Shown here: positions 202-62,928 of the stretch, piece by piece | Layout of the letters: each line of letters begins with the position of its first letter | Position numbering within the stretch: position 1 is the first letter of the stretch | NCBI RefSeq assembly: GCF_000466985.1 | Contig: NZ_BATC01000002.1 | Coordinates: forward strand, 1-64,000 | Origin: Brevundimonas abyssalis TAR-001 | Lineage (GTDB): Bacteria > Pseudomonadota > Alphaproteobacteria > Caulobacterales > Caulobacteraceae | Reading direction: 5' to 3' | DNA length: 64,000 bases | The notes under the pieces: model-generated | What the model was told of the DNA's origin: nothing | The model's database searches: none | What the model saw: the letters and a program-made list of their open reading frames with translations, nothing else | Made by a program: the position numbers and the translations under genes

Positions 202-1894
202 ATGCCGGACGACAGGCTGGAGGTCGCGGCGGGGTTCGCTACGGAGCGGGGGCCGCGGGCGGATAATCAGGACTTTGGCGGGGTGCACCTGGCTCGCCCG
301 AGGAGCAGCGCCTGCATGGGGTGATCGCGGCCATTGCGGATGGCGTCGGCGGGGCCCGGGGCGGGCGCGTGGCGGCCGAGCTGGCGGTGCGCAGCTTCAT
401 CGACGGCTATCTGGACCAGAAGCCCCTGTCGGGGGTGGCGGCGTCGGCGACGGCGGCCTTGCGCGGGTTCAACCGCTGGCTCCATGCGACCGGGCGCAGC
501 GACCCCAAGATGGAGGGCGCGGCGGCCACGTTCACGGCCATGATCCTGCGCGGGCGCGAAGCGACGGTGGTCCATGTGGGCGACAGCCGGGCGTGGCACT
601 GGCGCGACGGGGTGCTGACCCGTCTGACCGACGACCATGTGCTGAACCGGCCGGGGCAGGACCACATGCTGTTCCGCGCCGTGGGCATCGAGTCCGACGT
701 GAAGCTGGACGTGCGGGTGCAGGCGCTGGAGCCGCACGACCGGTTGCTGCTGACCACCGACGGGGCGCACCGGGCGCTGAACGAGGCCGAGATCGGCCGC
801 ATTCTGGGCCGCCGCGCCTCGCCGGACGCCGACGCCCAGGCCGTCGTCCAGGCGGCGCTGGCGGCGGACGGGCAGGACAACGCCACCGCCATCGTCATCG
901 ACGTGATCCGCACCGGGGCGCTGGACTGGGCGTCGCTGGGGCCCGCAGCGAGGCCCTGCCCATGCCGCCGCCGCCGAAGGCCGGCGAGATCGTGGACGAC
1001 TGGCGGCTGGAGCGGCAACTGGCCGACGGGCGGCACACGCGGCTGTTTCTGGCGCGGGATCGGCAGGGGGGCGACCCCGTGGTGCTGAAATTTCCCAAGC
1101 CCGGAAAGCTGCCCGAGGCGGACCTGCGCGCCATCCTGCTGCGCGAGGCCTTCATCGGCCAGCATGTGGACAGCCCCCATCTGGGCCGGACCCTGCCGGT
1201 CGACCCGGCGCGTCAGAGCCGGCTGTACAACGTCCAGCCCTTCTATGAGGGCGGCACCCTGCACGGGCGGCTGTCGCGGGGCGAGCCCATCCCCATGGCC
1301 GAGGGGGTGGCCATCGCGGCCTGCATCGCGCGGGCGGTCATGGCCCTGCACCGGCAGGGGGTCGTGCACCGGGACATCAAGCCGGACAATGTGATCCTGG
1401 GCCCGGACGGCGGGGTCAAGCTGATCGACCTGGGCGTGGCCAGGGTGGAGCGGGTGGAGGAGACCGGCGCGCGGGCCCCGGGCACCCCCGGCTTCGTGGC
1501 CCCGGAGATGTTCGCGGGCGACAGCGACGGGGACGAGAAGACCGACCAGTTCGCCCTGGGCGTGACGCTGTACCGGCTGTTCGCGGGCGAGGCGCCGTGG
1601 GGCGAGATCGATCCGGACAGCCGCCTGCCGTACGAGCGGCCCACGCCCCTGACGCGGCGGCGGCCGGACGCGCCCGCCTGGCTGGAGGCGGCGATCATGC
1701 GGGCCATCGCGCCGGACCCGGCCCACCGCTGGGCCGACGTGCAGGATCTGGTGCAGGCGCTGGAGAGCGGCGGGGCGCTGGCGGTGGAGCCGGCGCGCGA
1801 GATGTCGCTGCTGGAGCGCGACCCGGTGCGGTTCTGGAAGGGAGTCAGCCTGGTGTTGCTGATCGCCCTGATCGTGTCGCTGGTGCTGGGGTAA
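202..1894 (+). CDS. Bifunctional PP2C-type protein phosphatase / Ser-Thr protein kinase, membrane-anchored (two frameshifts)
   Basis: The protein would both phosphorylate and dephosphorylate Ser/Thr residues. The N-terminal half is a PP2C phosphatase: RADNQD near residue 22, ADGVGG, HVGDSRAW, TTDGAHR and GQDNAT supply the metal-binding acids. The second half is a kinase: VVHRDIKPDN near residue 390, KLIDLGVAR (DLG in place of DFG), and GTPGFVAPEM. A single C-terminal membrane helix (VSLVLLIALIVSLVLG) would anchor it. The reading frame changes twice: near 290, where one G restores HLGSPEEQ, and near 950, where one G restores LGPGSEALPMPPP. With both bases added the product is about 564 residues, in line with known phosphatase-kinase fusions. 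The ATG at 202 is chosen because it gives the complete first PP2C motif. No adjacent substrate gene is evident. Confidence 0.85.
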
Positions 1895-1906
1895 GAGCAC
1901 CGCGGA

Positions 1907-2355
1907 TCAGGGGCACCCTACCGCGTTCAGGCCGGCTCGCAACGCGTCCCCACCGCCGTCCAGTTCGACCTCGAGCGCGCCGTGCACGGCGATCCAGATG
2001 GGGGTGGCGCGGGCCAGCAGGGCGCGGCCCTCGTCGGTCAGGGTCGCGCGGCGCTGCGCCGGTCCTCGGGATCGATTGAAACGGTCGCCAGCCCCTGACG
2101 CTCCAGCGGCTTGAGGTTGGCAGTCACGGTGGACCGGTCCATGGCCAGCAGGGTCGCCAGCGCGCTGATGGGCGGCGGCGTGGGGCGGTTCAGGCCGTTC
2201 ATCAGCGAGAACTGTCCGCTGGTGATGCCGAGAGGGCGGAACGCCTCGTCGAATCGCCGCGCCAGCCGTCGCGCCGCCCGCTGGGCGTGCAGGCACAGGC
2301 AATGGTCGCGGATGTGCAGGGTGGCCTGGAAGGCGGCGGGGATCGTCTTTGACAT
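1907..2355 (-). CDS. MarR-family transcriptional regulator (one frameshift)
   Basis: A winged-helix DNA-binding protein of about 149 residues after repair. The N-terminal part has the dimerisation helix (AARRLARRFDEAF), the recognition region (ISALATLLAMDRSTVTANL) and the wing (VSIDPEDRRS). The frame then breaks near 2043, and one added base joins it to RRATLTDEGRALLARA, the usual MarR wing-to-helix-5 sequence. The ATG at 2353-2355 is used. The gene is divergent from the glutathione transferase at 2416, and a perfect palindrome lies between the two starts, so it probably represses itself and that neighbour. MarR proteins often sense phenolic or electrophilic compounds; the ligand here is unknown. 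Confidence 0.85.
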
Positions 2356-2415: not shown

Positions 2416-3065
2416 ATGATGCAGGTGTCCGCGTTTAAGTGGGTCCCGCCTTTCGCCCAAGGCTGGTGCGTGACCTCAGGGTCCGGTGGGCTCTGGAGGA
2501 GGCGGGGTTCGGCTATGACGACCACCTTCTGGGCCCCGAGGATCAGGCGTCGCCTACGTACCGGGCCTGGCAGCCGTTCGGTCAGGTGCCGGCCTTTCGC
2601 GACGACCGGGTGGAGATGTTCGAGTCCGGCGCCATCGTCCTCTATCTGGCCCAGAAGTCTGATCAGTTGATGCCTCGGGATGAAGCCGGGCGGGCCATGG
2701 TCATGACCTGGATGTTCGCGGCCCTGAACAGCGTGGAGCCCTTCGTCACCAATCTGGTGCTGATCGACCTGTTCTATGAAGGCGAGAGCTGGACGGTGGA
2801 GCGCCGTCCGCAGGTCGAGGCCGCCCTGCGCCGCCGCCTGGATGATCTTCAGACGGCGCTGGGCGAGCGTCCGTGGTTCGTGGGCGGCCAGTTCAGCGCC
2901 GCCGACATCCTGATGGCCACGGTGCTGAGGAACCTGCGGCACCTGGACATCCTGACGGACTATCCGGCGCTGTCGGCCTATCTGGAGCGGTGCACGGCGC
3001 GGCCGGCATTCAGGCGGGCCCTAGCCGAACAGATGGCGCCGTTCAAGGCGAACGAGCCCGCCTGA
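2416..3065 (+). CDS. Glutathione S-transferase family protein (one frameshift)
   Basis: A cytoplasmic GST of about 216 residues after repair, expected to conjugate or reduce electrophiles with glutathione. The N-terminal thioredoxin-fold begins VSAFKWVPPFAQG in the frame opened by ATG 2416. One missing G near 2461 shifts it to LVRDLRVRWALEEAG, the first helix. FGQVPAF holds the conserved cis-proline, followed by FESGAIVLYLA (the glutamate-serine pair that binds glutathione). The C-terminal helical domain contains FSAADILMATVL, the usual N-capping box. The start has a GGAGAGG ribosome-binding site. Probably controlled by the divergent MarR protein. A 9-bp hairpin follows the stop. Confidence 0.88.
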
Positions 3066-5501: not shown

Positions 5502-5504
5502 GAC

Positions 5505-5521: not shown

Positions 5522-5524
5522 CTG

Positions 5525-7599
<2,075 letters not shown>

Positions 7600-9076: not shown

Positions 9077-11405
9077 CTACGTCTTCTCCACGAACGTATC
9101 GATCACCTTCTTCTCGCCGGCCTTCTCGAAGTCCACCACCAGCTTGTTGCCCTCGATGGCGCGGATCGCGCCGTAGCCGAACTTCTGGTGGAACACGCGC
9201 TCGCCGCGCGCCCAGTTGGACGACGCCTTCGGGTCCCCCGTGGCGATCAGGCGGCCCTTGCCCTCGATGACGGCGTTGCGGGCCATGCGGTCGCGGGGCG
9301 TGGTGGAGGCGGTGAAGCTCTGGGCGCGCTTCCAGCCGGGGCTGGAGTATCCCGCGCCGAACACCGGCGTGTCGTCCCAGCGGGACTTGGCTTCCTTCAG
9401 ACCCGGCCCGGCGCCGTAATAGCCGGTGTCGCTCTCGGCCTGCACATGGTCGATGGGCAGTTCGTCCACGAAGCGGCTGGGCAGCTGGCTGGTCCAGCGG
9501 CCATAGACCAGACGGTTGGCGGCGAAGCTGATGCGCGCGTCCTCGCGGGCCCGGGTGACGCCCACGTAGGCGAGGCGCCGTTCCTCCTCCAGACCCTTCT
9601 CGCCCTTCTCGTCGATGCTGCGCTGGGACGGGAACACCCCTTCCTCCCAGCCGGGCAGAAAGACCAGCGGGAACTCCAGCCCCTTGGCGGCGTGCAGGGT
9701 CATGATCTGCACCGCATCCTCGCCCGCGCCCCGGTCCAGATCCATGACCAGCGAGACGTGCTCCAGATAGGCCTGCAGGCTGTCGAACGCCTGCATGGAC
9801 TGGGTCAGCTCCTTGAGGTTGTCCAGCCGGGTCTGGCCGCTCGCCCGGTCGGCGCGCTGCATGTCGGTGTAGCCGCTTTCCTCCAGAATGGTTTCGGTCA
9901 GCTCGCCGTGGGTCACGGTCCCCGCCATGGCCCGCCAGCGGTCCAGGTCGCGCACGAAATTGGACAGGGCCGTGCGGGTGCGGGCCTGCAGTTCGTCGGT
10001 GTTGATCAGGCCGCGCACGGCGGTCAGGGCGGACAGGTTGTGCTGGCGCGCGATGGCCAGGATCTTCTGCACCGAGGTGTCGCCGATGCCGCGCTTGGGC
10101 GTATTGACGATGCGCTCGAACGCCAGATCGTCGTCCTCGGACTGGATCAGGCGCAGATAGGCGTGGGCGTCGCGGATCTCGGCCCGCTCGAAGAAGCGCG
10201 GTCCGCCCACGACGGTGTAGGGAATGGCCAGCAGGACGAACCGCTCCTCGAACGCCCGCATCTGGAACGAGGCGCGCACCAGAATGGCGATGTCGCTGTA
10301 TTTGCGGCCCGCGCGGCGCTGGGTCTCGATCTCGTCGGCGATCAGGCGGCTTTCGGCCTCGCCGTCCCAGACGCCCTGCACCCGCACCTTCTCGCCGCCG
10401 TCGGCCTCGGTCCAAAGGGTCTTGCCCAGACGGCCCTTGTTGGCCTCGATCAGGCCCGAGGCGGCGCCGAGGATGTGCGAGGTGGAGCGATAGTTGCGCT
10501 CCAGCCGGATCACCTTCGCGCCCGGGAAATCCCGCTCGAAGCGGAGGATGTTGTCCACCTCGGCGCCGCGCCAGCCATAGATGGACTGGTCGTCATCGCC
10601 GACGCAGCAGACGTTGCCGGTGGAGGACGACAGCAGCCGCAGCCACAGGTACTGGGCCACGTTGGTGTCCTGATACTCGTCCACCAGGATGTATTTGAAC
10701 CGCCGCCGATAGTCCTCGGCCAGGCCGGGTTCTTGCCCAGGATGGTCAGGTTGTGCAGCAGCAGGTCGCCGAAATCGCAGGCGTTCAGTGACACCAGCCG
10801 CGCCTGATAGGCGGCGTACAGACCCTTGCCCTTGCCGTTGGCGAAGTCCTCGCCCGCCGGCAGGGTGTCCGGGGTCCAGCCGCGGTTCTTCCAGTGGTCG
10901 ATCATCCCGGACAGGGATCGGGGCGTCCACCGTTTGGTGTCGATGTTGGCCGCTTCCAGCAGCTGTTTCAGCACCCGTTCCTGATCGTCCATGTCGAGGA
11001 TGGTGAAGCTGGATTTCAACCCCACCAGCTCCGCATGGCGGCGCAGGATCTGGGCGGCCACGCTGTGGAAGGTGCCCAGCCAGCGCAGGCCCTCGGCCGA
11101 CGGCCCGATCAGATGGGTGATCCGCTCTCGCATCTCCCGCGCGGCCTTGTTGGTGAAGGTGACCACCAGCAGCTCCCACGGCCGGGCCTTGCCCGTGGCC
11201 AGGATGTGCGCCAGCCGGGTGGTCAGGACCCGCGTCTTGCCCGTGCCCGCGCCCGCCAGCACCAGCACCGGCCCCTCGGTGGTCTCGACCGCCAGCCGCT
11301 GTTCGGGATTGAGCCCGGCCATGTAGTCGCCGGCGCCCTGCGGGGCGCCTCGGGCGGGCGGGCGCGGGCCAGGTCGGAAATGCGGGGAGACGGAAGATCG
11401 GTCAC
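9077..11405 (-). CDS. uvrD: UvrD/PcrA/Rep-type DNA helicase II (one, probably two frameshifts)
   Basis: A superfamily 1 3'-to-5' helicase for nucleotide-excision and mismatch repair, about 776 residues after repair. Motifs in order: NPEQRLAVETTEG, GAGTGKTRVLTTR (Walker A), TFTNKAAREM, DEYQDTN (Walker B), GDDDQSIYGWRGA, LERNYRST, LMTLHAAKGLEF-type motif V as QIMTLHAAKGLEF, and VGVTRARE. The C-terminal FHQKFGYGAIRAIEGNK is the UvrD RNA-polymerase-interacting Tudor fold. One base is missing near 10726 (between KNP and GLAEDY). The start is uncertain: ATG 11322 (MAGLNPEQ) keeps the frame, whereas GTG 11405 gives VTDLPSPRISDLARARPPEA and needs one more added C near 11350, which matches the error type elsewhere. 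Confidence 0.93.
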
Positions 11406-11543
11406 GAAACGAAAGGCTGCCTGATGCGGATTCGGAAAGGGAGAACATAAGTAGCACGCAGCGACGCGCCAGCGCGACCGCAGGGAACCGCAAGGCTTCG
11501 ATCCCGTTCCGGCTCCATCAGAAAACAATGGGAGGATTCAATC

Positions 11544-14649: not shown

Positions 14650-15455
14650 ATCTCGGCGCGGGCCATGCGCAGGAAGCCTGCCACGTCGACGGTCTCGGCC
14701 CGCGCGTCGGGGTCGATGCCGGCGGCTTCGCACAGGGCCGCGCCGCCCAGGGTCTTGAGGCTGGACCGCAGCATCTTGCGGCGCTGGCCGAAGGCGGCGG
14801 CGGTGACCTGCTCCAGCCGCTTCAGCACAGCGGGCTCGGGCCGGTCGGGCCGGGGCGTCAGATGGACCACGGCGGAGTCCACTCGCGGCGGCGGGGTGAA
14901 GGCGCGGGCCGGCAGATCCATGACCACGCGCGCCTCGCACACCGCCTGGCTGATGACCGCCAGACGGCCGTAGGCGTCGTCGCCCACGTCGGCGGCGACC
15001 CGCTGGGCCACCTCCTTCTGGAACATCAGGGTCAGGGCGTGGGGCGTCCACGGGCCGGTCAGCCACTTGATCAGCAACGGCGTGCCCACATTGTAGGGCA
15101 GGTTGGACACCAGATGCGCCGGGCCATCGACAAGCTCGGCTTCCTTCACCTTCAGGGCGTCGGCCTGGATGATCTCGAGGCGACCCGACCCGTCGTCCAG
15201 TTCGGTGAGCAGGGGGACGAAGCGGGGGTCCTTCTCGACCAGCACCACCTTGCCCGCATCGCTTTCCAGCAGGGCGCGGGTCAGGCCGCCGGGGCCGGGG
15301 CCCACCTCGATCACCGCACGGCCCTCGAACGGCCCGGCGAGGCGGACGATCTTTCGCGTGACGTTCAGGTCCAGCAGGAAGTGCTGGCCGAAGCTCTTCT
15401 TGGCCGACAGCCCGTGGGCGTCCAGGGTTTCGCGCAGGGAGGGGAGGTCGGTCAT
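14646..15455 (-). CDS. rsmA: 16S rRNA (adenine1518-N6/adenine1519-N6)-dimethyltransferase
   Basis: Also called KsgA. It dimethylates two adjacent adenines in the 3' hairpin of 16S rRNA during late 30S assembly. The 269-residue protein has [16 protein letters not shown], the SAM-binding [17 protein letters not shown], the catalytic LVSNLPYNV, and the C-terminal [13 protein letters not shown]. It is the last gene of the lptF-lptG-lptD-surA-pdxA-rsmA series, with its ATG overlapping the pdxA stop as ATGA. That tight coupling to pdxA and surA is conserved across Proteobacteria. Confidence 0.97.
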
Positions 15456-16479
15456 GAGGCGGCGTGGCGGGCGTCGGCCATGGTGGCGGCCAGACGGATG
15501 GCGGCGATCAGGCTGTCGGGCCGAGCGACGCCCTTGCCGGCGATGTCGAAGCCTGTGCCGTGGTCCGGCGAGGTGCGGATGATGGGCAGGCCCAGGGTGG
15601 CGTTCACCCCGCCCCAGAAGTCCAGTGTCTTGACCGGGATCAGGGCCTGATCGTGATACATGCAGAGGGCCGCGTCATAGGCGCGGCGCGCCTCGTCGTG
15701 GAACAGGGTGTCGGCGGGCAGGGGATCGGTGATCTGTATCCCCTCGGCGCGCAGGGCCTCGGCCGCCGGCTTCAGGATCTCGATCTCCTGCAGGCCCAGC
15801 GCCCCGCCTTCACCCGCGTGGGGGTTCAGGGCCGCCATGGCCAGACGGGGGCGGGCGATGCCGAAATCACGCTTGAGGCACTCGTGGACCACCCGCGCCG
15901 TGCGGCGGATGCGGGCGTCGGTGACCAGTTCTGGCACCTCGTCCAGGGAGACGTGGATGGTGACCAGACAGGCGCGCAGGTCCCTGGCGGTCAGCATCAT
16001 CACCGGCCCCCGCGAGCTGGATAGGGCGTGTCGGCGGTCAGTTCGGCGATGAACTCGGTGTGGCCCGGAAAGCGAAAGCCGGCGGCGTACAGCGGCGCCT
16101 TGGCGATGGGGGCGGTGACGAGGCCGGACACGTCTCCCACCAGGGCCAGATTGACCGCCTGCTCGATCCAGTCGGCCACCGCGCCGGCGTTGGCCGCGTC
16201 GGGGCGGCCCGGCGTGACGGACGCGGGCGCGGGTCTGTCGAGGATGGGCAGGGCCTGCCCGAAACGGGCCCTCGCCTCGGCGGGATCATGGATTGAAGCC
16301 AGGGGTGAGGCACCCGCCGCCGCCAGGGTCCTGCTGTCGCCGATGACGACGAAGGCCGCGTCCGGGTCGTCCCTAAGTACAGCCCAGGCCTTGTGGATGA
16401 TCTCCGGACCGACTCCGGCGGGTTCGCCCAGCGTCAGAGCCAGGGGCGCGCGCATGGATGCGGCGGGCGCCCCCGTCAT
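15452..16479 (-). CDS. pdxA: 4-hydroxythreonine-4-phosphate dehydrogenase (one frameshift)
   Basis: NAD-dependent enzyme of the DXP-dependent pyridoxal phosphate pathway, about 342 residues after repair. The first part has [24 protein letters not shown] and [12 protein letters not shown], ending TPYPARGG before a stop. One G missing from the C/G run at 16007-16011 joins it to [19 protein letters not shown] and then [25 protein letters not shown] and [11 protein letters not shown], which carry the metal-binding histidines and aspartate. It starts 3 bases after surA and overlaps rsmA by 4 bases. The second methionine (16455) is an alternative start. Confidence 0.95.
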
Positions 16480-17921: not shown

Positions 17922-20292
17922 TCACCACATGTCATCGCGTTGATAACCTGTACCGCCCAATGTGGCGAGGGTTAGGCGCACATAGGCCCCGGTGCGCGGT
18001 CCGGACGGGTCCACACGCGTGTTGTCGCGGCGGTATCCGATCTCGAAGCGGATGCAGTCATCCTCGAACAGGAGGCCGACCTCGCCCCGCGTGAAGCGGT
18101 CCTCCTGAAGGTCCACGATGCCGCGACTGGCCACACCCCAGTTGCCGCTGACGAACTGCTGGCCGCTGAACTGAACGAACTCGTAGTTCCGGTAGGTCCG
18201 GGTGGCCAGGGGCAGGCTGGGGTCGACATCGACGGGGTTAGAGCGGTCGACGATATAGCTGACCGTGGCCAGGTTCCGCGCGCCCCAGGAGCCATCCACC
18301 ATGACCTCCGCCCGGCGGACCTCGCCGTCTTCGTCGATCTGGGCGTGGGCCCAGCCCCGGATCTGCGATCCGGGCGAGAAGGTCGCCGAGACGACCCAGT
18401 CCGAGGCCCGATCCGCCAGGCCTGAGGGGTCGAAGAGCTTCCGGTTCCGTCGCCGGTGGGCACCAGGTAGCGGTCCTCCCGTTCGTCACGCCAGCCGCGC
18501 CCAAGGAAGATGCTGGCCGAACGATCGTTATCCCAGCGCAGGCTGGCTCGTCCTCCCGCCACAAGGCGCAGGCCGCCTTCGTAAAGGTCGTGGCCGGTGA
18601 AACGGTCGACCGCGAACAGGGAGGTCTCATCCAGATCCGTCACCTGACTGTCCTCGTTGGGCAGGCGGGGATCGAGGTCGGCGCGATTGGAGATCGAAAT
18701 CTGTGCCAGGGGCTCCAGGACCAGATCCGCACCGTTCTCGAACCGGCGGATCAGCGGATAGCTGACATCAAGCCCTGCGGTGGCCCGCACACGAGTCGTC
18801 GTCACGGCGTCATCGCCCGCCGAGGGAAGATCCTCCACCGCGTAGGCGTCGCCGCGCAGATTGATGAAGGGCTCCCATCTCAGTCCGATGGGGGACGTCA
18901 GTATGCGACGCCAGTCCGCGCTCAGCACGATCCGCGCGCTGTCCACGCCCGGATAGCCGGAGAAATTCGGGTCGGAAGGGTCGGCTGAGGGGACCTGATC
19001 CGGCGCCAGGACCGGCGCGCCCACATAGTTTTCGCGAATCAGCACCGCCGCATTTCCGCTCAGGCGAAGCCGGCCCCCGAGGATGTCCTGACGCGGCTCC
19101 CACATGGCCTCGATCACCGGGGCCGCGACCGGCGTGACGCCGTCACGCTCGAAGACATTGTTGGCCGGGTTGGCCCGATCGACCTCCAGGACCCGGAGGC
19201 TCTGAATGGTGAAGGCCGCCGCTGACAGGTAGGATCGTTCCGTCTGATGTTCGGCGTAGACCTGCGAGATCAGACGGCGGCGGTCGCCGTGATAGAGACC
19301 GTTGTCCTGATAGGGGTCTTCCGTCCCGTAGCGGTCGAACAGCGTCTTGTCCGACGCCCGCTCCGCGGTGAAGCCCCAGCGCCATGGTCCGGCCGGATCA
19401 AAGGCGCCATGGGCCAGCAGATAGCCGCGATGATCCTGATCCTCGACCCCGGGGATGTCCTCGTATGTGTAACCGGCCCTGGCCTCGACGATCCCGTCGC
19501 CGAAATGACGGCGCCACTGAAGGTTCAGAAACGGGTTCACATCGGTGTTGAACTGGGGGCTGATGATCCAGTCCTCGGACGGCGAACGGACGATCAGATA
19601 GGGCTGTTCGTACGAAAGCCTCGCGCCTCGTCGTACTCGATGCCGGGGACCAGGAAGCCCGAGGCGCGCTCCACCGTCGGGTCAGGATGCGCGAAGAAGG
19701 GCAGCCACAGCACCGGCACGCCGCCCACGCGGAACAGGGCGTTCTCGTACAGGATGGCGCGCAGGCTCTCGTCCTGCACCACCTTCCGGGCCTGAATGGA
19801 CCAGGTCGGCTCCTTGCGCCGGCCGTCGTCGTCGCAGATGGGGCAGGGGGTGAACAGGGCGTAGTTCAGCTCGTTGACGGCCTGCGACCGCCGGACGGCC
19901 GTCGCCGCCATCAGATGACTGCCGTCGACGCCGCGGACTGCCAGATTCACAGCCACGCCGGTCTGCAGATTCTCGTTCAACTCGAGCCGATCTGCGGTCA
20001 CCACCGTGCCGTCGACGTCGATCAGTTCGACATCGCCCGACGCCGTCGCGACACCGGTGTTGAGATTGTAGGTGACCTCCCGACCGCGAAGATTCCGACC
20101 TTCGAACCGGGCCAGGACGCGCTCATTTTCGCCCCGAGCCGCAACTTCGCCGGTGTCGCCGTCGCGAGTGACGTCCTCCGCCTCTATATAGAGGGCTTCC
20201 GGCGGAAGGCGTTCGGATGACGGTTGCTGGGCCAAGGCGACGCCGGGCCCGAGCAGCACGACAGCCGCACCCGTGAGCAGGCGTCGACGCAT
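17922..20292 (-). CDS. lptD: LPS-assembly outer-membrane protein LptD (two frameshifts)
   Basis: Forms the outer-membrane barrel through which LPS reaches the cell surface, with LptE as plug. About 790 residues after repair. The signal peptide starts MRRRLLTGAAVVLLGPGVAL at ATG 20292. The OstA_N jellyroll follows (YIEAEDVTRDGDTGEVAARG, YNLNTGVATASGDVELIDVD, LELNENLQTGVA). FTPCPICDDDGRR has a cysteine pair. The rest is alternating barrel strands ending GYQRDDMW. One base is missing near 19616 (restoring ARGFSYEQPYLIV) and one near 18440 (restoring TGKLFDPSGLADRAS). LptD is needed where LPS is made, so both breaks look like sequence errors. Confidence 0.93.
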
Positions 20293-40229: not shown

Positions 40230-41531
40230 TTAACGTGCGTCGTGCACGATGCGCCCGCCGACGACGGTGAGCAAGACCTTGCCCTGCAGCACGCGTCCGT
40301 CGAAGGGCGAGTTCTTGGACTTGGAGCGGAGTTTGTCGGCGTTGATGACCACCGGCGCATTGGGATCGAACAGAACCAGGTCGGCCGGAGCGTCCGCCTG
40401 CAGCTCGCCCGCCTCCAGCCCCAGCAGGGTCGCCGGGCCGCTGGTCAGGGGTCGCAGGATGTCGATCAGGTCCAGCCCCGCCTCGTGGTGCAGGCTGAGC
40501 ACGGCGGGCAGCAGGGTTTCCAGCCCCACGGCGCCGGGCGCCGCCTCGCTGAACGGACGGCGCTTGTCCTCGGCCGGGGCCGGGGTGTGGGCCGAGGTGA
40601 TGACGTCGATCAGCCCCTCGCGCACAGCCTCGATCATGGCCTGGCGGTCGCTCTCGGCGCGCAGGGGCGGGTCCAGCCGGTAGAAGGTGCGGTAATCGCC
40701 GATGTCCACCTCGTTGAAGCACAGGTGGTTGATCGAAACGCTGGCGGCGACCTCGAGCCCGCGGGCGCGGGCGCGGGCCAGGCAGTCCAGCGCCGCCTCG
40801 GTCGAAATCTGGTCGGCCAGGAACCGGGCGCCGGTCTGTTCGACCAGCGCCAGATCGCGCTCCAGCTGGATGCGCTCGGCAATGGCCGGCGCGCCCGACA
40901 GACCCAGCCGCGTGGCCAGTTCGCCCGAGGTGGCGCAGGCGCCCTCGGACAGCCACGGGTCCGCCGGGCGGTGGGCGATCAGGGCGTTGAACGCCGAGGC
41001 GTAGCTCATCACCCGCTGCAGGGTGCGGCTGTTGGCGATGACCCGGTCGCCGTCAGTGAAATACAGCGCCCCGGCCTCGGCCATCAGGCCGATTTCGGCC
41101 ATGCGCTCGCCGTCCAGCCCGCGCGTGGCGGCGCCCGCCGCGCGCACATTGACCAGGTTCAGGGCCGCGCCCCGCCGCTGGATGAAGTCGACCATGGCCG
41201 GGTCGTCCACGGCCGGATCGGTGTCCGGCTGGATGACGATAGTGGTGACGCCGCCCGCCGCCGCCGAAAGGCTGGCCGACTTCAGGGTCTCCTTGGGCTC
41301 GGCCCCTGGCTCGCCGGTCTTGACCCGGATGTCGATCAGGCCCGGCGCCAGCACCATGCCGCCCGCGTCGATGATTTCGACCCCGTCCGGGGTCCGGGTC
41401 GCGGCGCCGTGGATGACCTCGACGATGCGGCCGTCCTGGATCAGCACTGCGCCGGGACCGTCATAGTCGCCAGCCGGGTCCACCAGCCGGGCGTTGATGA
41501 TCGCCAAAGCCTTGGAGGATGGGCCGCTCAT
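40230..41531 (-). CDS. Dihydroorotase-like protein lacking metal ligands (PyrX/PyrC' type)
   Basis: A 433-residue amidohydrolase-fold protein directly after pyrB, with overlapping stop/start (ATGA). The fold is clear from [33 protein letters not shown], and [15 protein letters not shown]. The dihydroorotase metal site is not: the HxH after the first strand reads IRVK, and the later DHAPH-type segment reads [13 protein letters not shown] without the catalytic aspartate. This is the signature of the non-catalytic subunit that assembles with aspartate carbamoyltransferase in some bacteria. A true PyrC would then be encoded elsewhere. It is often auto-annotated as pyrC. Confidence 0.85.
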
Positions 41532-42501
41532 CGTTCCGCCTCCTGCCGCGCGGACAGGGAGGCCAGCACCGCCATGCGCACCGCCACGCCCATCTCCACC
41601 TGATCCTGGATCAGGGAGACGGCCGGGTCGTCGGCGACGCCGGAGTCGATCTCGACGCCCCGGTTCATGGGGCCGGGGTGCATCACCCTGGCCCCGGGCG
41701 CCGCCCAGGCCAGCTTCTCGGCGTCCAGCCCCCAGAAACGGTAGTATTCGCGGGTCGATGGGGCCAGGGCGCCGTCCATGCGCTCCAGCTGCAGGCGCAG
41801 CATCATCACCACGTCGCAGCCCTTCAGCCCCTCGCGCATGTCGTGAAACACCTCGCAGCCCCAGCGGTCGGCGTCGCCGGGAACCAGGGTCGGCGGGCCG
41901 ATCAGGCGCACCCGCACCCCCATCATGGAAAGCAGGGCCACGTTCGAGCGCGCCACCCGGCTGTGGGCCACGTCGCCGCAGATGGCCACGGTCAGCCCGC
42001 CCACGTCGCCAAAGGCGCGGCGCAGGCTCAGCATGTCCAGCAGGGCCTGGGTCGGATGTTCGTGGCGACCGTCGCCGGCGTTGACCACGGCGCAGCCACC
42101 TTCTGGGAGAGCAACTCCGCCGCGCCGGACGCCGAGTGGCGCACCACCAGAATGTCCGGCTTCATGGCGTTCAGGGTCATGGCCGTGTCGATCAGGGTCT
42201 CGCCCTTGGCCACCGAGGAGGTGCGCGGGTTCATGCTGACCACGTCGGCGCCCAGCCGCTTGGCCGCGATCTCGAAAGAAGCCGAGGTGCGGGTGGAGTT
42301 CTCGAAGAACAGATTGACCACCGTGCGCCCGCGCATCAGGTCCAGCGCCTTGGCCCCCTGACGGTTCACATCCACGCAGGCGTCGGCCAGATCCAGCAAC
42401 GCGGTCAGCGTCACGGGATTCAGATCGCCGGCGGAATTGAAATGGGCCCGGGGAAACGGCGTCAGCCGTGAACGGACAAGATCGGTGACGGCCTGGGTCA
42501 T
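41528..42501 (-). CDS. pyrB: Aspartate carbamoyltransferase catalytic subunit (one frameshift)
   Basis: Condenses carbamoyl phosphate with aspartate in pyrimidine synthesis. About 324 residues after repair. The carbamoyl-phosphate site [20 protein letters not shown] and [12 protein letters not shown] are in the first frame. One G missing near 42098 separates LLSQKVG from [20 protein letters not shown]. The aspartate-binding part has [14 protein letters not shown]. The downstream pyrX-like gene overlaps it, and the two are expected to form one complex. No pyrI regulatory chain is nearby. Confidence 0.95.
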
Positions 42502-42771: not shown

Positions 42772-43149
42772 TTATGCCTTGCGCAGGCTCATGATGGCGG
42801 ACTCGATGGTGGAGCCGAGGAACACCGCCGCGATCACCACGGCCAGGCCGAAACTGACGCCCGGAAACAGCGGGGGCAGGGCGGCGGCGAGGATGATCAG
42901 GCCCGGATAGATGGCGGCCCAGACCGCTGAACTGGGCGCTTCAGCGATCACCAGCGGACCCTTCTTCATCTTCATGAAGCGGGGCACGAAGGGCTGAAGA
43001 ACAAGGAAAACCACCGTCACCACCGCCGCCGTGGCCACATAGCGCCAGGGCGGATCGGCAGGGCCGAAGATGGTGGCGCTCATGACCAGCAGGGCCACAG
43101 CGAACAGGGTGGTTATGGCCAGGAGGACGTTGGGATCGATACGCTTCAA
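42772..43149 (-). CDS. Four-helix membrane protein of unknown function
   Basis: A 125-residue protein with four predicted membrane helices: LLAITTLFAVALLVMSATIF, YVATAAVVTVVFLVLQPFV, AVWAAIYPGLIILAAALPPL and GLAVVIAAVFLGSTIESAI. The TTG start overlaps the phaC stop (TTGA) and has an AAGGTG-type site upstream, so it is translated with phaC. I recognise no family. Co-transcription hints at a link to storage-polymer or membrane physiology, but this is only context. It ends right at the REP-like hairpin. Confidence 0.7.
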   Translation of the reverse strand: MKRIDPNVLLAITTLFAVALLVMSATIFGPADPPWRYVATAAVVTVVFLVLQPFVPRFMKMKKGPLVIAEAPSSAVWAAIYPGLIILAAALPPLFPGVSFGLAVVIAAVFLGSTIESAIMSLRKA

Positions 43150-45106
43150 GATTTCACCTTCACATAGGCGCCGGGCGCCGGCTCGATGGGCTTCAGGGCG
43201 CCCTTTTTCGGATCGCGGGCGTCAACCCAGTCGCCGGACCGCTCATGCAGCCATGCGGCCCAGTGCGGCCACCAGGAGCCCGGGTGCTGCTCGGCGCCCG
43301 CCTGCCATTCCGCAAGGGTGTCGGGCAGGTCCGGATTGGTCCAGTGCTGGTACTTCACCGCCGCCGGGTGGTTGACCACGCCCGCGATGTGGCCGGAGCC
43401 GGCCAGGGTGTAGGTCACCGGCCCGCCGAACAGCTTCGTCGAGCGATAGACCGAGTTCATGGGCGCGATGTGGTCCTCGCGGCTGGCCTGGGCGTAGATG
43501 GGCGTCCTGACCTTCGACAGGTCCACGCGGACGCCGCCGATCTCGAAGTCGCCCCGGGCCAGGGCGTTCTGGCCGTACATCTTGCGCAGATAGGCCATGT
43601 GCAGGGCCTTGGGCATGCGGGTCTGGTCGGCGTTCCAGAACAGCAGGTCAAAGGACGGCGGATCCTTGCCCATCAGATAGTTGGAAACGAAGAACGACCA
43701 GATCAGGTCGTTGGCCCGGAGCGCGTTGAAGGTGTCGGCCATGGCGCTGCCCGGCAGGACGCCGCCGGCCTCGTCCATCATGCCCTCGATCTCGGCCAGC
43801 CAGTGGTCGTCCGTGAACAGCAGGAGGTCGCCGGCCTCCTCGAAATCATGCTGGGCGGCGAAGAAGGTGCAGGCGTTGATCCGCTCGTCGCCCTTCGCCG
43901 CCATATGGGCCATGGCCGCGCCCATCAGGGTGCCGCCGATGCAGTAGCCGACGGTGTTGAGCCGATCCGTGCCGCACTGCTCCATGACCCTGGAGGTGGC
44001 GCGGTAGATGCCCTTTTCCAGATAGTCGTCGAAGCCGAAGGCGGCCTTGTCGGCGTCGGGATTGACCCACGAACAGACGAAGACGGTGAAGCCTTGCTCC
44101 GACAGCCAGCGGATCATCGAGTTCGCGGGCTGCAGGTCCAGGATGTAGAATTTGTTGATCCACGGCGGGAAGATCAGCAGCGGAATGGCGCGCTGTTTGT
44201 CGGTGGCGGCGTCGTACTGGATCAGCTCGAACAGTTCGTCACGCCAGACCACCTGGCCGGGGCTGGTGGCCACGTTCTCGCCCACGCGGAACTTGCCGTA
44301 GTCCGCCTGGCTGATGGCCAGCTTGCCGCCGCCACGCTCAAGGTCGGCGGCGAAGTTCTGCATGCCCTTCACCAGGCTCTCGCCGCTGGTCTCGGCCAGA
44401 GCTTTGAGCGCCGCGGGGTTGGAGGCCAGAAAATTGGACGGGGAGAAGGCGTCTGTCAGCAGCTTTGTGAAGAACTCGGCCCGGCGGCGGGTGCGCGGGT
44501 CCACATCGTCTGCGCTGGAGATCAGAGTGTTCATCCAGTCGGCGGTGACCAGGTAGGACTGGCGCATCACATCGAACATGGGATTCTCGGCCCAGGCCGG
44601 GTCCTTGAACCGCTTGTCGGGGGCGGCGGTGACCGGGACGTCCTCGCCCGCCGCGCGCCGGGCGGTGTCGGTCCACAGGGTCATGTAGCGGCCGAACAGA
44701 TCGGCCTGGGCCTGGAACAGACGTTCGGGACGGGAGGCCAGGCTGGTCATGACCGAGGTCATGGCGGGGCCGACATTGAGCGGATCGGCCGACAGGGCCG
44801 CAGGGCGGTCGGCCCGGCTGAGGGCCGCCTCGGCCAAGGCTGACTGGGCCGTCATGGCCGCCCGGGCGATGTTCAGGGACAGGGTCTCGATCATGCGGCG
44901 TTGTTCGGCGCCGATGGCGAAGGGGGCGAAGGCGTCCGGCTGGGACGGGGGCGGGTAGCCGCAGCGGCGGCGGCCTCAGGCTCCGGCGCAGGCTTTGCGG
45001 TCTTCGGTTTTGCGGTCTTCGGCTTGGCCGCTGCGCGCGGCGCGGCCTTCTTCGGCGCGGCCTTTTTGGCGGTGCGTGTCGCGGGCTTTTTCGGCGGCGT
45101 GGCCAT
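43146..45106 (-). CDS. phaC: Class I poly(R)-hydroxyalkanoate synthase (one frameshift near N-terminus)
   Basis: Polymerises hydroxyacyl-CoA into PHA granules. The catalytic part has the lipase-like box GYCIGGTLMGAAM with the active cysteine, plus SWVNPDADKAAFGFDDYLEK, TRMPKALHMAYLRKMY and the histidine in GSGHIAGVVNHPAA. ATG 44894 would give 582 residues. Upstream, the same frame encodes PDAFAPFAIGAEQRR, a plausible PhaC N-terminus, and one base added near 44950 links it to a 45106 start with a lysine/alanine/proline-rich head (TAKKAAPKKAAPRAAAKPK). The repaired protein is about 653 residues. The basic head might contact DNA or granule phasins. Confidence 0.9.
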
Positions 45107-45631: not shown

Positions 45632-45706
45632 GATCGGTTCACGCCTGCGACCGAATCCGACGACCCTGCGGGCCAGACTGGCATGGATGATGAGGTACAA
45701 GGGCGC

Positions 45707-47526
45707 ATGGCGGACGGCGGCGTGGCGACAGCGGTGAATTTCCTGGGCGTGTCGTGCTCCCTGTCCGGCCGCGCCTGGCTTCAGCGCCCGGCCGAGGCGG
45801 AGACGGTGCGCGCCCACATGCAGGGGCTGGGCCTGGCCGAGCCGCTGGCCCGGGCGCTGGCGGCGCGGGGCGTGACGGCGGACCAGGGCGAGGATTTTCT
45901 GAGCCCGACCCTGCGGGCGCTGTTTCCCGATCCGTCCAGCTTTCTCGACATGGACAAGGCCGCCGAGGTCATTCTGGACGCCCTGACGGCGGGCCGGAGC
46001 ATCCATGTGTTCGCCGACTATGACGTGGACGGGGCCTCCAGCGCGGCGCTGCTGGTGCGGTGGTTCCGGGCCATGGGGGCGGACCTGCCCATCTATGTGC
46101 CCGACCGCCTGACCGAGGGGTATGGCCCCAGCCCGAAGGCGTTCGAGACGCTGAAGGCGAGCGGGGCGGACCTGGTCATCACCGTGGACTGCGGGGCGGC
46201 GGCGGTGGAGGCGGTGGCCCACGCCGCGGCCATCGGCCTGAAAGTGGTGGTGGTGGATCACCACCTGATGCGCGAACAGCCCCCCGCCTGCGAGGCGGTG
46301 GTCAATCCCAACCGGCCGGGCTGCAACTCGGGCCAGGGCAATCTGGCGGCGGCGGGGGTGGTGTTCGTGCTGCTGGCCGCCCTGAACCGGGCGGCGCGGG
46401 CGCGGGGCCTGTTCGCCGCGCGGGCCGAGCCGGACCTGCGCCAGTGGCTGGATCTGGCGGCGCTGGGGGCCATCTGTGACGTCACGGCGCTGAACGGCTT
46501 CAACCGGGCGCTGGCGGCGCTGGGGCTGAAGGTCATGTCGGACTGGCGCAATCCGGGGCTGGCGGCGCTTCTGGCCGTGGCGGGCATGGAGCCGGGGCCG
46601 GCCAAGGCCAGCCATGCCGGATTCATCCTCGGGCCGCGAATCAATGCGGGCGGGCGCATCGGCCGGGCCGATCTGGGCGCGCGCCTGCTGTCCACGGACG
46701 ATCCGGCCGAGGCCGCGCGCATCGCCGCCGAGCTGGACGCCTGAACACGTCCCGCCGCGAGGTGGAGCGCGAGGTGACCGAGGCGGCGGTGCGCCAGGTC
46801 GAGAGCCGGGGCCCCGACGCGCTGGACCGCGCCATCATCGTGGTGGAGGGCGAGGGGTGGCATCCGGGCGTGGTGGGCATTGTGGCCGGGCGGCTGCGCG
46901 AACGCTGGCGCAAGCCGGTGATCGTGATCGGGGTCGATCCCGCCACGGGCGTGGGCAAGGGCTCTGGCCGGTCGCAGCCGGGGGTGAACCTGGGCCGGGC
47001 GGTGCAGGCTGCGTGGGAAGCGGGGCACCTGATGGCGGGCGGCGGCCACGCCATGGCCGCGGGCCTGACCGTGGCGGGGGACCGCATCGAGGCCGCGCGC
47101 GCCTTTCTGGAAGAGGCGCTGGCCGACCAGCAGGCGGCGGCCGAGGTTCTGGACGTGGTGGATGTCGATGCGATTCTCGATTGTCGCGCGGCCAGCCGGA
47201 GTCTGTTCGAGGATTTCGAGCGCCTGGCGCCGTTTGGCCCGTCCAATCCCGAGCCGCTGTTCGCCCTGGACCGGGTCACGGCGCGCGAGCCCGTGGCCAT
47301 GACCGGCGGCCATGTGCGCTGCCGGCTGACGGCGGCGGACGGCGCCTCGGTCAAGGCCATCGCCTGGCGTTGCGCTGACCTGCCGCTGGGGCGGGCGCTG
47401 CTGTCGGGCGCGACGGGGCTCAGCGTGGTCGGTCGGCTGAAGGCGGATGACTGGAACGGCCGCCGGGGTGTGCAGTTCGAGGTCGAGGACGCCCACGACC
47501 CGCGTCGCGAAACCAGCGATTTTTAG
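45707..47526 (+). CDS. recJ: Single-stranded-DNA-specific exonuclease RecJ (one frameshift)
   Basis: A 5'-3' exonuclease for recombination and mismatch repair, about 606 residues after repair. DHH domain: HVFADYDVDGASSAALLVRW, VITVDCGAAAVEA and VVVVDHHLMREQ. FILGPRINAGGRIG is motif V. The frame ends at a false stop after AAELDA; one C missing near 46742 restores AELDALNTSRREVEREVTEA. The DHHA1 part follows: EGWHPGVVGIVAGRLRERW and AGGGHAMAAGLTV, then the OB-like C-terminal domain. ATG 45707 is favoured; 45683 is also possible. Confidence 0.95.
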
Positions 47527-52639: not shown

Positions 52640-53841
52640 TCAGGCGGCCGCTTCGCCGCCCTCCAGCTCCTGCAGCTTGGCCCGGAAATTGGCGCGCTGC
52701 GGATCCATCTCGACCGCCCGCCGGAAGCAGGCGAGGGCGGATGTCAGGTCTCCACGTCGGCTGTGAATCTGCCCCAGGGCGAAATTGGCGCGCCCGCCGA
52801 TGATGGGGTGGTCGGCGATCTGGGTGTAGGCGGCGACGGCTTCGTCCAGCCTGCCCATCCGCTCGATGGCGCGCGCGAGCTGGAGTCTGGCAGGAGTCAG
52901 TCCGCTGTTCAGCGCCACGGCGGCGGCCAGGGCGGTCTCGGCGTGGCTGAACTTGCCCAGATGAAGCATGCCCTTGCCGTGCAGGTAATTGGCGTAATCC
53001 GAGCGCGGGTAATAGTTCATCGCGCGTTTCGCCAGGCGCGCCGAGTCGCCCCAGCGGCGTTCGATGTCGGCGCGGTGAGCGTCATAGAGTGTCTCGGCGA
53101 ACTGCTCATCCAGTCCCCAGCCGCCCTCGGGCATGCGCGGCAAATGCTGGTTGTCCAGGAAGGCGTCGATCATCGGGGCGAGGCGGCCCTTGCGGTGCAG
53201 ATAGCTGACGACGCCGTGCTGCACGCGCCTCAGGGAGTCCGCGAAGACGTTCGGCAGGTCGGCGAGATTGAACGCCGAATAGAGATCAACGGGATCGCTT
53301 TCACCGGCGTAGAGGAAAATCGGCGCCCGGGCCTTTTCCACCATGGGCCTCAGGTCGGGAACGGGCGGCGTGAACCCCTTCTCCATCAACCGCTGCACAT
53401 TGCCGCCGACCAGGTCCATCTGTGTCTCGCACGAGAAGGCCAGGACGCGGGCGCGAGAGGGACGCCGTGCAGGAAGGCCCCGGTTCCGCCCATTGCGGCG
53501 CCGACGGTGTACAGGCTTTGGGCGTCGAGATGCTTCGCCCACTGGCGGAATGACCGGGTCACCTCGGTGCGGTCGCCTCCCAGGCCGTCGATCCCGGCCT
53601 GATACCACTGGTTCGGGCCGTTGCTGACGACAATGGCGCTGGCGTCGATGCGCAGGGCCGTATCAAGCCACTCGAAAGAATGATCGGCCGTGTTGGAGCC
53701 CGAGAAGAAAATAGCGAGCTTCTCCGACTTGCGGGGAAAGACGCGAAAGCGCGGGTGATCCAGGGGCGTGGGAGAGTCTGGCAAGCTGGTCTCGAAACTG
53801 GGGATGAGGTCAGGGCTCGAAATTCGGCGACGCTCCGGCAA
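52640..53841 (-). CDS. Alpha/beta-hydrolase-like protein with C-terminal TPR repeats (one frameshift)
   Basis: About 400 residues after repair. The N-terminal part resembles an alpha/beta-hydrolase fold: KLAIFFSGSNTADHSFEWLD, LYTVGAAMGGTGAFLHG in the nucleophile-elbow position, then VLAFSCETQMDLVGGNVQR. The usual GxSxG serine is replaced by methionine (GAAMGG), so catalysis is doubtful. The C-terminal half has tetratricopeptide-like helices (RADIERRWGDSARLAKRAMN, ALNSGLTPARLQLARAIERM, SALACFRRAVEMDPQRANF). One C missing near 53460 joins the halves. It lies beside a GSCFA fragment and a dioxygenase. Function unknown; a role in surface glycan handling is only a guess. Confidence 0.7.
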
Positions 53842-56726: not shown

Positions 56727-57823
56727 ATGATGATCGCGCGCGCAATCCGGGCGGGGCTGATGACGGGGCTGCTCATGCTGGCGGCCTGCGGCGACGGCGA
56801 GCCCGAGCGTGAGGCGGACCGCGCCCCCGACGCGCCCCTTCCGGCAGAAGAGGCCGCCGAGCCCAGCGAAACCCTGGCGGCGGTGCGCGCGCGCGGACGG
56901 TTGAACTGCGGCGTGCACGAGGGCCTGGTGGGCTTCGCCTACACCGACAATCGCGGGCAGTGGCGCGGGTTCGACGTGGATTTCTGCCGCGCCACGGCGG
57001 CGGCGGTGCTGGGCGATCCGGACGCGGTGCGGTTCGTGCCCCTGGCCATCGGGGACCGGTTCGAGGCCCTGGCGGACGGCCGCATCGACGTGCTGTGGCG
57101 CAACACCTCATGGACCATGGGCCGAGACGCGGGCGAGCGGATGGAGTTCGTGGGGGTCAATTATTATGACGGCCAGGGCTTCCTGGTGCGGCGCTCCCTG
57201 GCCCTGACCAGCGCGGCGGAGCTTGATGGAGCCCGCATATGCGTTCAGTCCAACTCCACGACCGCCCTGAATCTTCAGGACTATTTCGCGGTCCGGAACC
57301 TGCGCTATGAGCCCGTCATGGCCGCCAGCGAAGAGGAGGCGCGCGAAGCCTATGTGGCCGAGGACTGCGACGCCTTCACCGGCGACGTGTCGGCCCTGGC
57401 GGCGGCGCGGACCATGCTGGGCAATCCCCAGGCCCACGCCATCCTGCCGGACGTGATCTCCAAGGAGCCGCTGGGCCCCGTGGTTCGGCGTGGCGACGAC
57501 CAGTGGGCCGACATCGTGCGCTGGACCCTGAACGCCCTGATCCTGGCCGAGGAACTGGGCGTGACGCAGGAGAATGTGGACCAACTGGCCGAGAACTCGC
57601 CGGACCCCAGGATCCAGCGGCTGCTGGGCGTCCAGGACGGGTTCGGATCCATGATGGGTCTGTCGGACGCCTGGCTCATGACGCCATCGCGGGGGTCGGG
57701 AACTATGGCGAGATCTTCGACCGCAATCTGGGCGCCCGCTCGTCCGTGAATCTGGCCCGGGGGCTGAATGCGCAGTGGAACGCCAGTCCGCGCGGTCTGA
57801 TGTACGGGCTTCCGATCCGCTAG
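56727..57823 (+). CDS. Amino-acid ABC transporter substrate-binding lipoprotein, AapJ-like (one frameshift)
   Basis: About 365 residues after repair. Signal MMIARAIRAGLMTGLLMLAA ends before a lipobox cysteine (LAAC). The binding-protein fold starts LAAVRARGRLNCGVHEGLVG, then GFDVDFCRATAAAVLGDPDA, RIDVLWRNTSWTMGRDA and CVQSNSTTALNLQDYFA, which match general L-amino-acid-binding AapJ proteins. One base missing near 57676 restores DAWLHDAIAGVGNYGEIFDR and the proper end. No permease or ATPase gene lies beside it. Being lipid-anchored rather than free in the periplasm is unusual for AapJ. Confidence 0.87.
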
Positions 57824-57838
57824 ACGGCAGGCGGCGGT

Positions 57839-58669
57839 CTATTCTGCGTGAACGGGCACATCCGGCCGGGCGCCCCATTCGGCCCACGAACCGTCGTAGA
57901 CCGCGCTGTCGCGTCCCAGCACCGCCAGCGCCAGGGTCAGGATCGCCGCCGTGACGCCTGATCCGCAGGTGGTGATGACCGACTGTCCGGGCGCCAGGCC
58001 CGCGCGGTGGAAGATGGCGGCGAGTTCGGCGGGCGTCCGCAGCGTGCCGTCGGGGCTCAAAACCTCGACGAAGGGAAGGTTGACCGCCTTCGGCATGTGA
58101 CCGCTGCGAAGGCCCGGGCGCGGTTCGTCGGCCTCTCCACGAAAACGCGCCGCCGGGCGGGCGTCGATCACCTGTGTGGCGGGATCGTCCATGGCGCGCC
58201 GGACCTGCATCAGGCCGGCGACCCGGGCGGCCTGAAAGTCTGTGTTGAACACGGCGTGCGGCGTCGGGGTCCCGGGCCCGGTCTCGACCGGCCGCCCCTC
58301 GGCCATCCATTTCGGCAGGCCGCCGTCCAGAACCTGGACCCGCCGGGCGCCCATGGTCCGGAAGGTCCACCAGACCCGCGCCGCCGAGAACAGGCCGCGC
58401 TCATCATAGACGACGATGTGGTCTTGCTGATCGATGCCCATGGCGCCGACCGCCGCCGCGAACGCCTCGGACGAGGGCAGCATGTGGGGCAAGGGACTGG
58501 CGGTGTCCGCCACAGCGTCGAGGTCGAAGCGCACGGCGCCGGGGATGCGGGGTTCGTCGTCGCCCGGACGGCTCCCGTCCATGCGCCAGCTGGCGTCGAT
58601 GATGCGAACATCGGGGGCATCCAGAAGAGCGGCCAGTTCGTCTGTAGAGAGGAGCGGATGATGGACCAT
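57839..58669 (-). CDS. sseA: Thiosulfate / 3-mercaptopyruvate sulfurtransferase
   Basis: A two-rhodanese-domain enzyme of 276 residues. The N-terminal inactive domain has VRIIDASWRMDGSRPGD and VVYDERGLFSAARVWWTFRT. The C-terminal domain carries QVIDARPAARFRGEADEPRP, SGHMPKAVNLPF and the catalytic cysteine in VITTCGSGVTAA; the CGSGVTA loop is the mercaptopyruvate sulfurtransferase type. It transfers sulfur from mercaptopyruvate to thiols or cyanide. It is convergent with the substrate-binding gene and divergent from the photolyase. Confidence 0.93.
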   Translation of the reverse strand: MVHHPLLSTDELAALLDAPDVRIIDASWRMDGSRPGDDEPRIPGAVRFDLDAVADTASPLPHMLPSSEAFAAAVGAMGIDQQDHIVVYDERGLFSAARVWWTFRTMGARRVQVLDGGLPKWMAEGRPVETGPGTPTPHAVFNTDFQAARVAGLMQVRRAMDDPATQVIDARPAARFRGEADEPRPGLRSGHMPKAVNLPFVEVLSPDGTLRTPAELAAIFHRAGLAPGQSVITTCGSGVTAAILTLALAVLGRDSAVYDGSWAEWGARPDVPVHAE

Positions 58670-58683
58670 GGGGGCAGATTAGC

Positions 58684-60240: not shown

Positions 60241-60244
60241 GCGC

Positions 60245-61462: not shown

Positions 61463-61474
61463 CAGAACCTCCCC

Positions 61475-62928
61475 TCAGGCCTTGTCCCGTGCGGACTTGA
61501 CGTCCTCCAGAGCGTCCAGGGCGCGTTGTCGCGCCATGGCATGGTCCACGATCGGAGCCGGATAGTCACGCCCCAGCCGGATTCCCGCCGCGGCCAGCAC
61601 CTCTTTCGGCGCGGTCCATGGCGCATGGATCCAGCGGTCGGAAAGCCCGGCCAATTCAGGAATCCAGCGTCGCACATAGCGTCCGTCCCCGTCGAATTTC
61701 TCGCCCTGGGTCACGGGATTGAAGATGCGGAAATAAGGCGCGGCGTCCGCACCCGATCCGGCGACCCATTGCCAGTTCTGAATGTTGTTTCCCATGTCGG
61801 CGTCCACAAGCGTGTCCCAGAACCAGGCCTCGCCCTCGCGCCAGTCGATCAGGAGGTCCTTGATCAGGAAGGAGGCGACGATCATCCGCACACGGTTGTG
61901 CATCCAGCCGGTGGCCCACAGCTGGCGCATGCCGGCGTCCACGATGGGATAACCGGTCATGCCGCGCTTCCAGGCCTCCAGACCCTCGGCGTCGTCGCGC
62001 CAGACCATGGAGTCGAACTCGGGCCGGAAGGCGCGCTCGGCCATGTAGGGGAACTGGTGCAGAAGATGAGTTGAGAACTCGCGCCAGCCGATTTCGCTGA
62101 CGAATTTCTCGGCCTGTTTGGCCGGAACCCGGCCGTCCTCGGCCGCCTGACGCGCGGCGTGCACGGCCCGCCATGGGCTGATCTCGCCGAAATGCAGGTG
62201 AGGGGACAGGCGGCTGGTCCCGTCCTTCCCCGGAACGTCGCGACCGTCGCCGTAGGCCTTGAGCGGGCCGGCCAGAAAGCGGGACAGGGCCTCGCGCGCG
62301 CGGCCTCGCCGGGGGTCCAGTCGAAGTCTTCCGACCAGTCCGGCCGGGTCGGGTGCAGGCTCCAGTCGTCGACGGGTTCGGTTTTAAGGCCCTCGATCCC
62401 GTCCAGCGTGCGCGGTCCGTCGCGGGGGGCGGGCTCTTCGACGACCTGAAGCAGCGCCTTCAGGAAGGGGGTGAACACCTTGTAGGGCGCGTCCTGGCCC
62501 GTGCGCACCGACCCCGGCCGGGCCAGCATGGTCCCGTTGAAGCCGCGACAGGTCACGCCGTCCGCCTTCAGCCCCTGGGCGATCTCCGCATCCCGCTCCC
62601 AGGCGGCCGGCTCGAACAGGCGATTCATGTAGACGGTCTGCGCACCCGTCTCCTCGATCACCGACCGCAAGACCGACTCGGCGTCGCCGGACCGCAGCAC
62701 GAGCGGGGCGCCGCGATCTTTCAGATCGGCGGCGAGGGCGCGCAGGGACTTGTCCAGCCACCATCTGGACGCCGCGCCCAGGGGGCGGCCGTCCAGTTGC
62801 TCATCGTGGATATACAGAGGGATCACCGGCGCCCCGGACTCCGCCGCCTCGGTCAGGGCGGAATTGTCGGCGATCCTCAGGTCGCGCCGAAACCAGACGA
62901 TGACGGGGGCGGGCGTGTCGTTGGCCAC
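61475..62928 (-). CDS. phrB: Class I CPD deoxyribodipyrimidine photolyase (one frameshift)
   Basis: Uses blue light to split cyclobutane pyrimidine dimers. About 484 residues after repair. N-terminal antenna domain: PVIVWFRRDLRIADNSALTE. One G missing near 62297 separates DWTPGEAA from AREALSRFLAGPLKAYGDGR. The FAD-binding C-terminal part has SRLSPHLHFGEISPWRAVHA, EIGWREFSTHLLHQFPYMAE, GYPIVDAGMRQLWATGWMHN, and NNIQNWQWVAGSGADAAPYF. The GTG at 62928 is the start. It forms an operon with cfa and faces a second photolyase. Confidence 0.94.

Follow-up and report, generated by a model that had tools for sequence, protein, structure and literature searches.

Frame breaks such as those considered here have their closest described counterparts among the indel errors of sequencing platforms. 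On the Ion Torrent Personal Genome Machine (PGM), high-frequency indels occur about once per one to two thousand reference bases, and a strand-asymmetric class of them, made up mainly of C and G deletions, has 82% of its sites in homopolymers of two to three bases; frame-shifts in assembly are named as a consequence (PMC3623719). A second report described strand-specific PGM deletions in which its authors found no obvious motif (PMC3431227), and in a long-read draft 23.3% pseudogenes resulted from indels that peaked in runs of four to five, A/T being commonest (PMC12007338). Here and below, statements on these three reports and on PMC3622629 refer to the passages considered in this work. We analyzed bases 1-64,000 (hereafter the window) of a 132,699-base contig (C127) of the Brevundimonas abyssalis draft genome (G000); 16 frame breaks listed for the window interrupt 13 genes, among them parE, lptD and pyrB. 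The window breaks are very probably consensus errors of an Ion Torrent PGM draft and not real gene decay.

The draft comprises 128 contigs, the smallest of 535 bp and the largest of 135,343 bp, and totals 2,979,231 bp at a completeness of 86%; the G+C content of the window is 68.3%. The published B. abyssalis TAR-001T draft, also of 128 contigs from 535 to 135,343 bp, has 2,979,700 bp and 68.2% G+C, and was sequenced on the Ion Torrent PGM with a 318 chip and assembled with CLC (PMC3798453). From the equal contig number, smallest contig and largest contig we infer that the two are the same assembly, and because these figures match we count the sequence as an Ion Torrent PGM product; its nominal depth, computed here, is ~57x. 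As the reference we used the metagenome-assembled genome Brevundimonas sp. DS1.3.44 (G021), the best named relative of the window, which is 90.8-95.1% identical to it over six aligned stretches and largely collinear. The comparison covers the window except for 4970-5524, 12050-12139, 42694-42781 and 58659-60243, which had no G021 alignment. Searched against phages, 24 kb of the window gave two 43-base matches and nothing more.

A preliminary description of the window had listed the breaks and proposed one-base losses at all of them. Alignment to G021 bore this out at 15 of the 16, where the window has one base fewer, at most 10 bases from the place first listed; in what follows each break is given as first listed and then as aligned. 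One base is lost at each of two places in the PP2C phosphatase/protein kinase fusion gene (202..1894, plus strand; 290, 293 and 950, 940), in the uvrD/pcrA-type helicase gene (9077..11410, minus strand, start not fixed; 10726, 10723 and 11350, 11347) and in lptD (17922..20259, minus strand; 18440, 18437 and 19616, 19622). Single breaks, again by the loss of one base, lie in the MarR-type regulator gene (1907..2355, minus strand; 2043, 2053), near the start of the glutathione S-transferase (GST) gene (2416..3065, plus strand; 2461, 2462), and in parE (5525..7599, minus strand; 5942, 5942), pdxA (15452..16455, minus strand; 16009, 16017), pyrB (41528..42501, minus strand; 42098, 42095) and recJ (45683..47526, plus strand; 46742, 46739). 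The same holds for the TPR-repeat protein gene (52640..53784, minus strand; 53460, 53455), the AapJ-like substrate-binding protein gene (56727..57800, plus strand; 57676, 57672) and the photolyase/cryptochrome gene phrB (61475..62928, minus strand; 62297, 62300). The one-base claim did not carry over to phaC (43147..45106, minus strand; first listed at 44950), where the frame changes because the window carries 8 more bases than G021 at ~44963, within a low-complexity linker. This equals the loss of one base only modulo 3, with the same effect on the frame, and is not a plain one-base loss. The number of split genes, put at "at least fifteen" in the preliminary description, comes to 13 with 16 breaks.

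The comparison with a close relative that had been proposed thus gave the longer form at 15 of the 16 sites, and all 13 genes are without an internal stop in G021. The window copies of 12 of the 13 fell into pieces that occupy two or three reading frames of the same strand, while GST, whose break lies near residue 11, gave a single piece starting near the break; the 30 residues before 293 in the PP2C/kinase gene yielded no piece. After window pieces at or below 60% identity and outgroup matches at or below 35% had been dropped, the window pieces were 82.7-100% identical to the G021 proteins, with the phaC linker (70%) as the exception; both pieces of pyrB were 100% identical. Family models identified parE, pdxA, pyrB, phaC and recJ above the NCBIfam cut-offs. 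Identification of the uvrD/pcrA, lptD, photolyase/cryptochrome, amino-acid-binding protein, TPR, PP2C plus kinase, MarR and GST genes was below the NCBIfam cut-off or by Pfam support. Of the "TPR-hydrolase" named in the preliminary description, the TPR part is supported by family models, which found no hydrolase domain in that gene. Loci from other genomes read through at the break in parE (87 of 88), uvrD (7 of 7 at both sites), pyrB (2 of 2), recJ (2 of 2), the AapJ-like gene (4 of 4) and the photolyase gene (6 of 6), and in 0 of 1 for GST and 1 of 11 for phaC.

That repair never requires removing a base holds throughout the list, for phaC modulo 3. Outside the list, one uncompensated gain of a base was found within a window gene in the filtered set, at 57829, within the final 1% of the gene at 57820-58658. 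Two further gains and a loss at 25065-25083, on the 5' edge of a short frame-tracker call (25044-25385), and a gain at 28721, on the edge of another call, fall in what is putatively spacer.

We extended the comparison to a quarter of the draft (737,539 bases), set against 1,593,847 bases of G021, with 319,968 draft bases aligned. The counts leave out G021 genes that are shorter than 240 bases, carry a tracker frame change or have a length not divisible by three, gene stretches of fewer than 150 aligned bases, frame-restoring indel groups within 60 bases, and aligned stretches shorter than 400 bases or below 80% identity; the length and tracker filters removed the AapJ-like gene, phaC and the 5' part of uvrD from the losses counted. 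Among 241 gene stretches open in G021, 45 were frame-changed in the draft, through 49 single-base losses, 2 single-base gains, one change of -10 and one of +8, and the single-base losses fell in 41 of the 241 genes. Whereas losses outnumbered gains 49:2 in genes (binomial p 1.2e-12), single-base differences in spacers were balanced at 62 losses to 57 gains (p 0.71), and the two ratios differ sharply (Fisher p 2.2e-9). The losses amount to 0.21 per kb of coding DNA and are spread as an even rate would allow (chi2 44 over 36 blocks); over gene length, such a rate predicts 18% broken genes against the 19% seen. Clustering gave no signal, with 8 pairs of losses closer than 1 kb (7.5 expected) and 4 closer than 300 bases (2.7 expected). 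For 241 kb of draft coding DNA outside the window, a reference-free frame tracker called 51 breaks of loss type and 24 of gain type, for the window itself 11 and 3, and for 153 kb of control coding sequence 8 and 7; it points the same way but is noisy and serves as support only.

The reverse control asked the same of 223 gene stretches called open in the draft, and none of them had a base missing in G021. Its 12 listed differences (11 of -1 and one of -10) are all shorter in the draft and are placed at 6-8% or 96-100% of the draft frame, as would be expected if a break in the draft ends the frame early. This result bears on a mixture of mostly errors with one or more true frameshifts of the strain among the 15 window breaks. 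Natural frame changes near gene ends do occur between the two genomes (the gain at 57829, and the -10 at 99% of a gene), and phaC differs by 8 bases; but with 0 of 223 in the reverse control, true breaks between these species look rare, and we regard such a mixture as fairly unlikely.

Real gene decay can be deletion-biased, so that the sign of the breaks is insufficient proof by itself, and the spacer control was used for this reason. Every break does interrupt a gene in the deposited sequence, and a mutator or bottlenecked strain whose genes were truly broken by deletion-biased mutations could share that sign. Spacers, which are under weaker selection, show no deletion bias, so that a deletion-biased mutation process is not seen. 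Nor is relaxed constraint, expected of pseudogenes, apparent: the codon-position mismatch ratio was 0.326 in the 41 broken genes and 0.324 in 200 intact ones (Mann-Whitney p 0.73), a test that very recent decay would escape. The breaks also do not fall preferentially on dispensable genes, since gyrB (2 losses), metG (3, at 1%, 5% and 95% of the gene), nrdA (1), lptD (2), parE, alr and pyrB are broken, as is pdxA. Genes such as gyrB, metG and nrdA are normally indispensable, and a family-model search of the draft found no second copy of any of the three above cut-off. It gave one over-cut-off match for metG, with seven weaker ones below the cut-off, one for nrdA, in two pieces, and two only for the gyraseB family, which are gyrB and parE. 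With these three genes broken and no second over-cut-off copy of them found, real decay is not credible, and genuine mass pseudogenisation is highly improbable.

As in the strand-asymmetric PGM class, C and G deletions dominate (44 of the 49 losses), together with the 49:2 sign. Of the 26 losses in the first sample, 22 lay in runs of at least two, by run length in G021, and 19 in runs of two or three, again as in that class. The loss rate per thousand G/C runs rose with run length from one to five as 0.05, 0.8, 1.6, 2.5 and 4.8. These rates bear on the idea that the cell could read the broken genes by programmed frameshifting or under another decoding rule. A single rule of this kind would require breaks of a common sign, which is what the list has, but the losses lie at differing places and codons in genes that are straight-through in relatives, and the same short runs are mostly intact (12 losses in 15,471 G/C runs of two). 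The probability of this explanation is practically negligible.

The losses show a further regularity. With the lost base oriented as C, 39 of the 44 C/G losses leave one or two C in the run, and in 37 of these 39 the run is immediately preceded by G, compared with 57% of comparable runs (p 2.4e-7). The preference was noticed post hoc on 18 sites (16 of 18) and recurred on 19 further sites (18 of 19, p 6e-4). G is also favored four bases before the run and disfavored two bases before it, preferences that come without a held-out test, and among 20 positions beside the losses one stands out for mismatches (8 of 26). In the part of the Ion Torrent error literature considered here, the preceding-G preference was not found in print. 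A run of two or three C after G, with the G pattern at -4 and -2, is a tentative but serious candidate for a general motif of strand-specific Ion Torrent deletions; if it is one, it would flag false pseudogenes in G+C-rich PGM-era drafts from sequence alone.

We therefore sharpen the earlier interpretation, which had named no platform, to under-calls by the Ion Torrent that the CLC consensus retained, as the evidence supports. PGM reads would under-call certain short C/G runs by one base, mostly at sites of two or three C directly after G or their mirror on the other strand, probably through a strand asymmetry of read errors, and the CLC consensus would accept the shorter form. At the rate found for coding sequence, nearly a fifth of genes would then seem split though whole in the cell. 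The gene/spacer sign, the equal constraint, the broken indispensable genes and the PGM match together uphold the view that these are deletion errors and not mass pseudogenisation.

The likeness to the strand-asymmetric PGM indels is close: single-base events at C/G in runs of two to three, dominated by deletions and shifting frames in the assembly. Two differences remain, in that the published indels were measured on reads, whereas the losses here lie in the consensus, and in that the passages of PMC3623719 considered do not mention the preceding G, which is strong here. The deletions of PMC3431227 are likewise Ion Torrent deletions at particular places, for which that report gives no motif, whereas the C runs here show a strong preference for an immediately preceding G. 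Long-read drafts share the outcome, about a fifth of genes seeming pseudogenised by indel errors, but differ in platform, in the length of the runs and in A/T being commonest (PMC12007338). Long-read error as the cause was dropped on the 535-bp contigs and the published PGM method (PMC3798453). Illumina GGC-motif errors were also set aside, as they are described as miscalls and quality loss, unlike single-base losses (PMC3622629, PMC3431227).

More broadly, the assembly errors could stem mainly from long-read base-calling, library preparation or an assembler consensus rule and not from flow-calling. In favor of this are the 23.3% indel pseudogenes of the long-read draft (PMC12007338), and PMC3623719 leaves library, template or sequencer open as the source of PGM indels. 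The contigs down to 535 bp and the published PGM and CLC method (PMC3798453) speak against it, as do losses at C/G in runs of two to three where the long-read example has A/T in runs of four to five. We consider another origin unlikely; library or assembler causes acting on PGM data would be variants of the explanation preferred here.

Several observations weigh against Ion Torrent consensus errors as the full account. Five of the 13 genes (PP2C/kinase, marR, pdxA, lptD and TPR) have no covering locus in a third genome, and 22.5 kb of the window is without a break (p 0.036 taken alone). Five of the 49 losses are A or T, and none fell in the 34 G/C runs longer than five, where the length-five rate gives an expectation of 0.2, too few to test. 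The tracker found an excess of gain-type calls (24 in 241 kb compared with 7 in 153 kb), which is noise or a few real gains. In PGM data, insertions exceed deletions overall, ordinary flow-call errors over-call short runs, and the strand-asymmetric class makes up only 7.4% of testable high-frequency indel sites (PMC3623719); the near absence of gains therefore needs the asymmetric subclass or the assembler's choice. Finally, the published total exceeds the analyzed one by 469 bp.

Some features of the window and the draft were noted in passing. A photolyase-related protein gene (Pfam DPRP, 58684-60240) lies near phrB, and G021 does not have it at this place. The ~80-base stretch at 42691-42772 recurs at no fewer than 13 other G021 places (best 40 candidates scored), and G021 collinearity switches contig there (C2 to C5), as for a dispersed intergenic repeat at a synteny break. 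A manganese riboswitch (yybP-ykoY, 50643-50739; 46.2 bits, cut-off 45) lies upstream of a putative manganese efflux pump gene (Mntp, 50006-50569, minus strand). Elsewhere in the draft, a cytosine-5 DNA methyltransferase gene (contig C126, ~70998) is among the broken genes. Bases 1-20000 of contig C110 (L127), with a G+C content of 61% and about half coding by the frame tracker, are possibly a mobile or foreign island.

The genes flgF, flgG, flgH, hfsD and rseP were reported as not found in TAR-001T (PMC3798453). Despite that report, flgG and flgH (both over cut-off) and a flgF-like gene beside flgG are open frames on contig C117 (L241, L242, L245). A polysaccharide export gene on contig C96 (L246:1286-2915), with Poly_export followed by SLBB domains in another frame, seems split at two places by the frame tracker and is a candidate hfsD. 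The RseP family model gave a weak match below cut-off (22.5 bits; L240, contig C57), a result that speaks neither for nor against the published absence of rseP.

As biology the breaks are an ordinary artefact, of an error type already known, and their use is as a data-quality warning; a PMC search for B. abyssalis with pseudogenes found no paper. The gene-versus-spacer sign count with its reverse control offers a read-free way to separate errors from true decay. In the set searched here, which has one genome per species, this draft represents its species. Since nearly one in five sampled genes is split, its completeness value is plausibly too low, gene-loss claims made from it are unsafe, and truncated proteins can enter databases.

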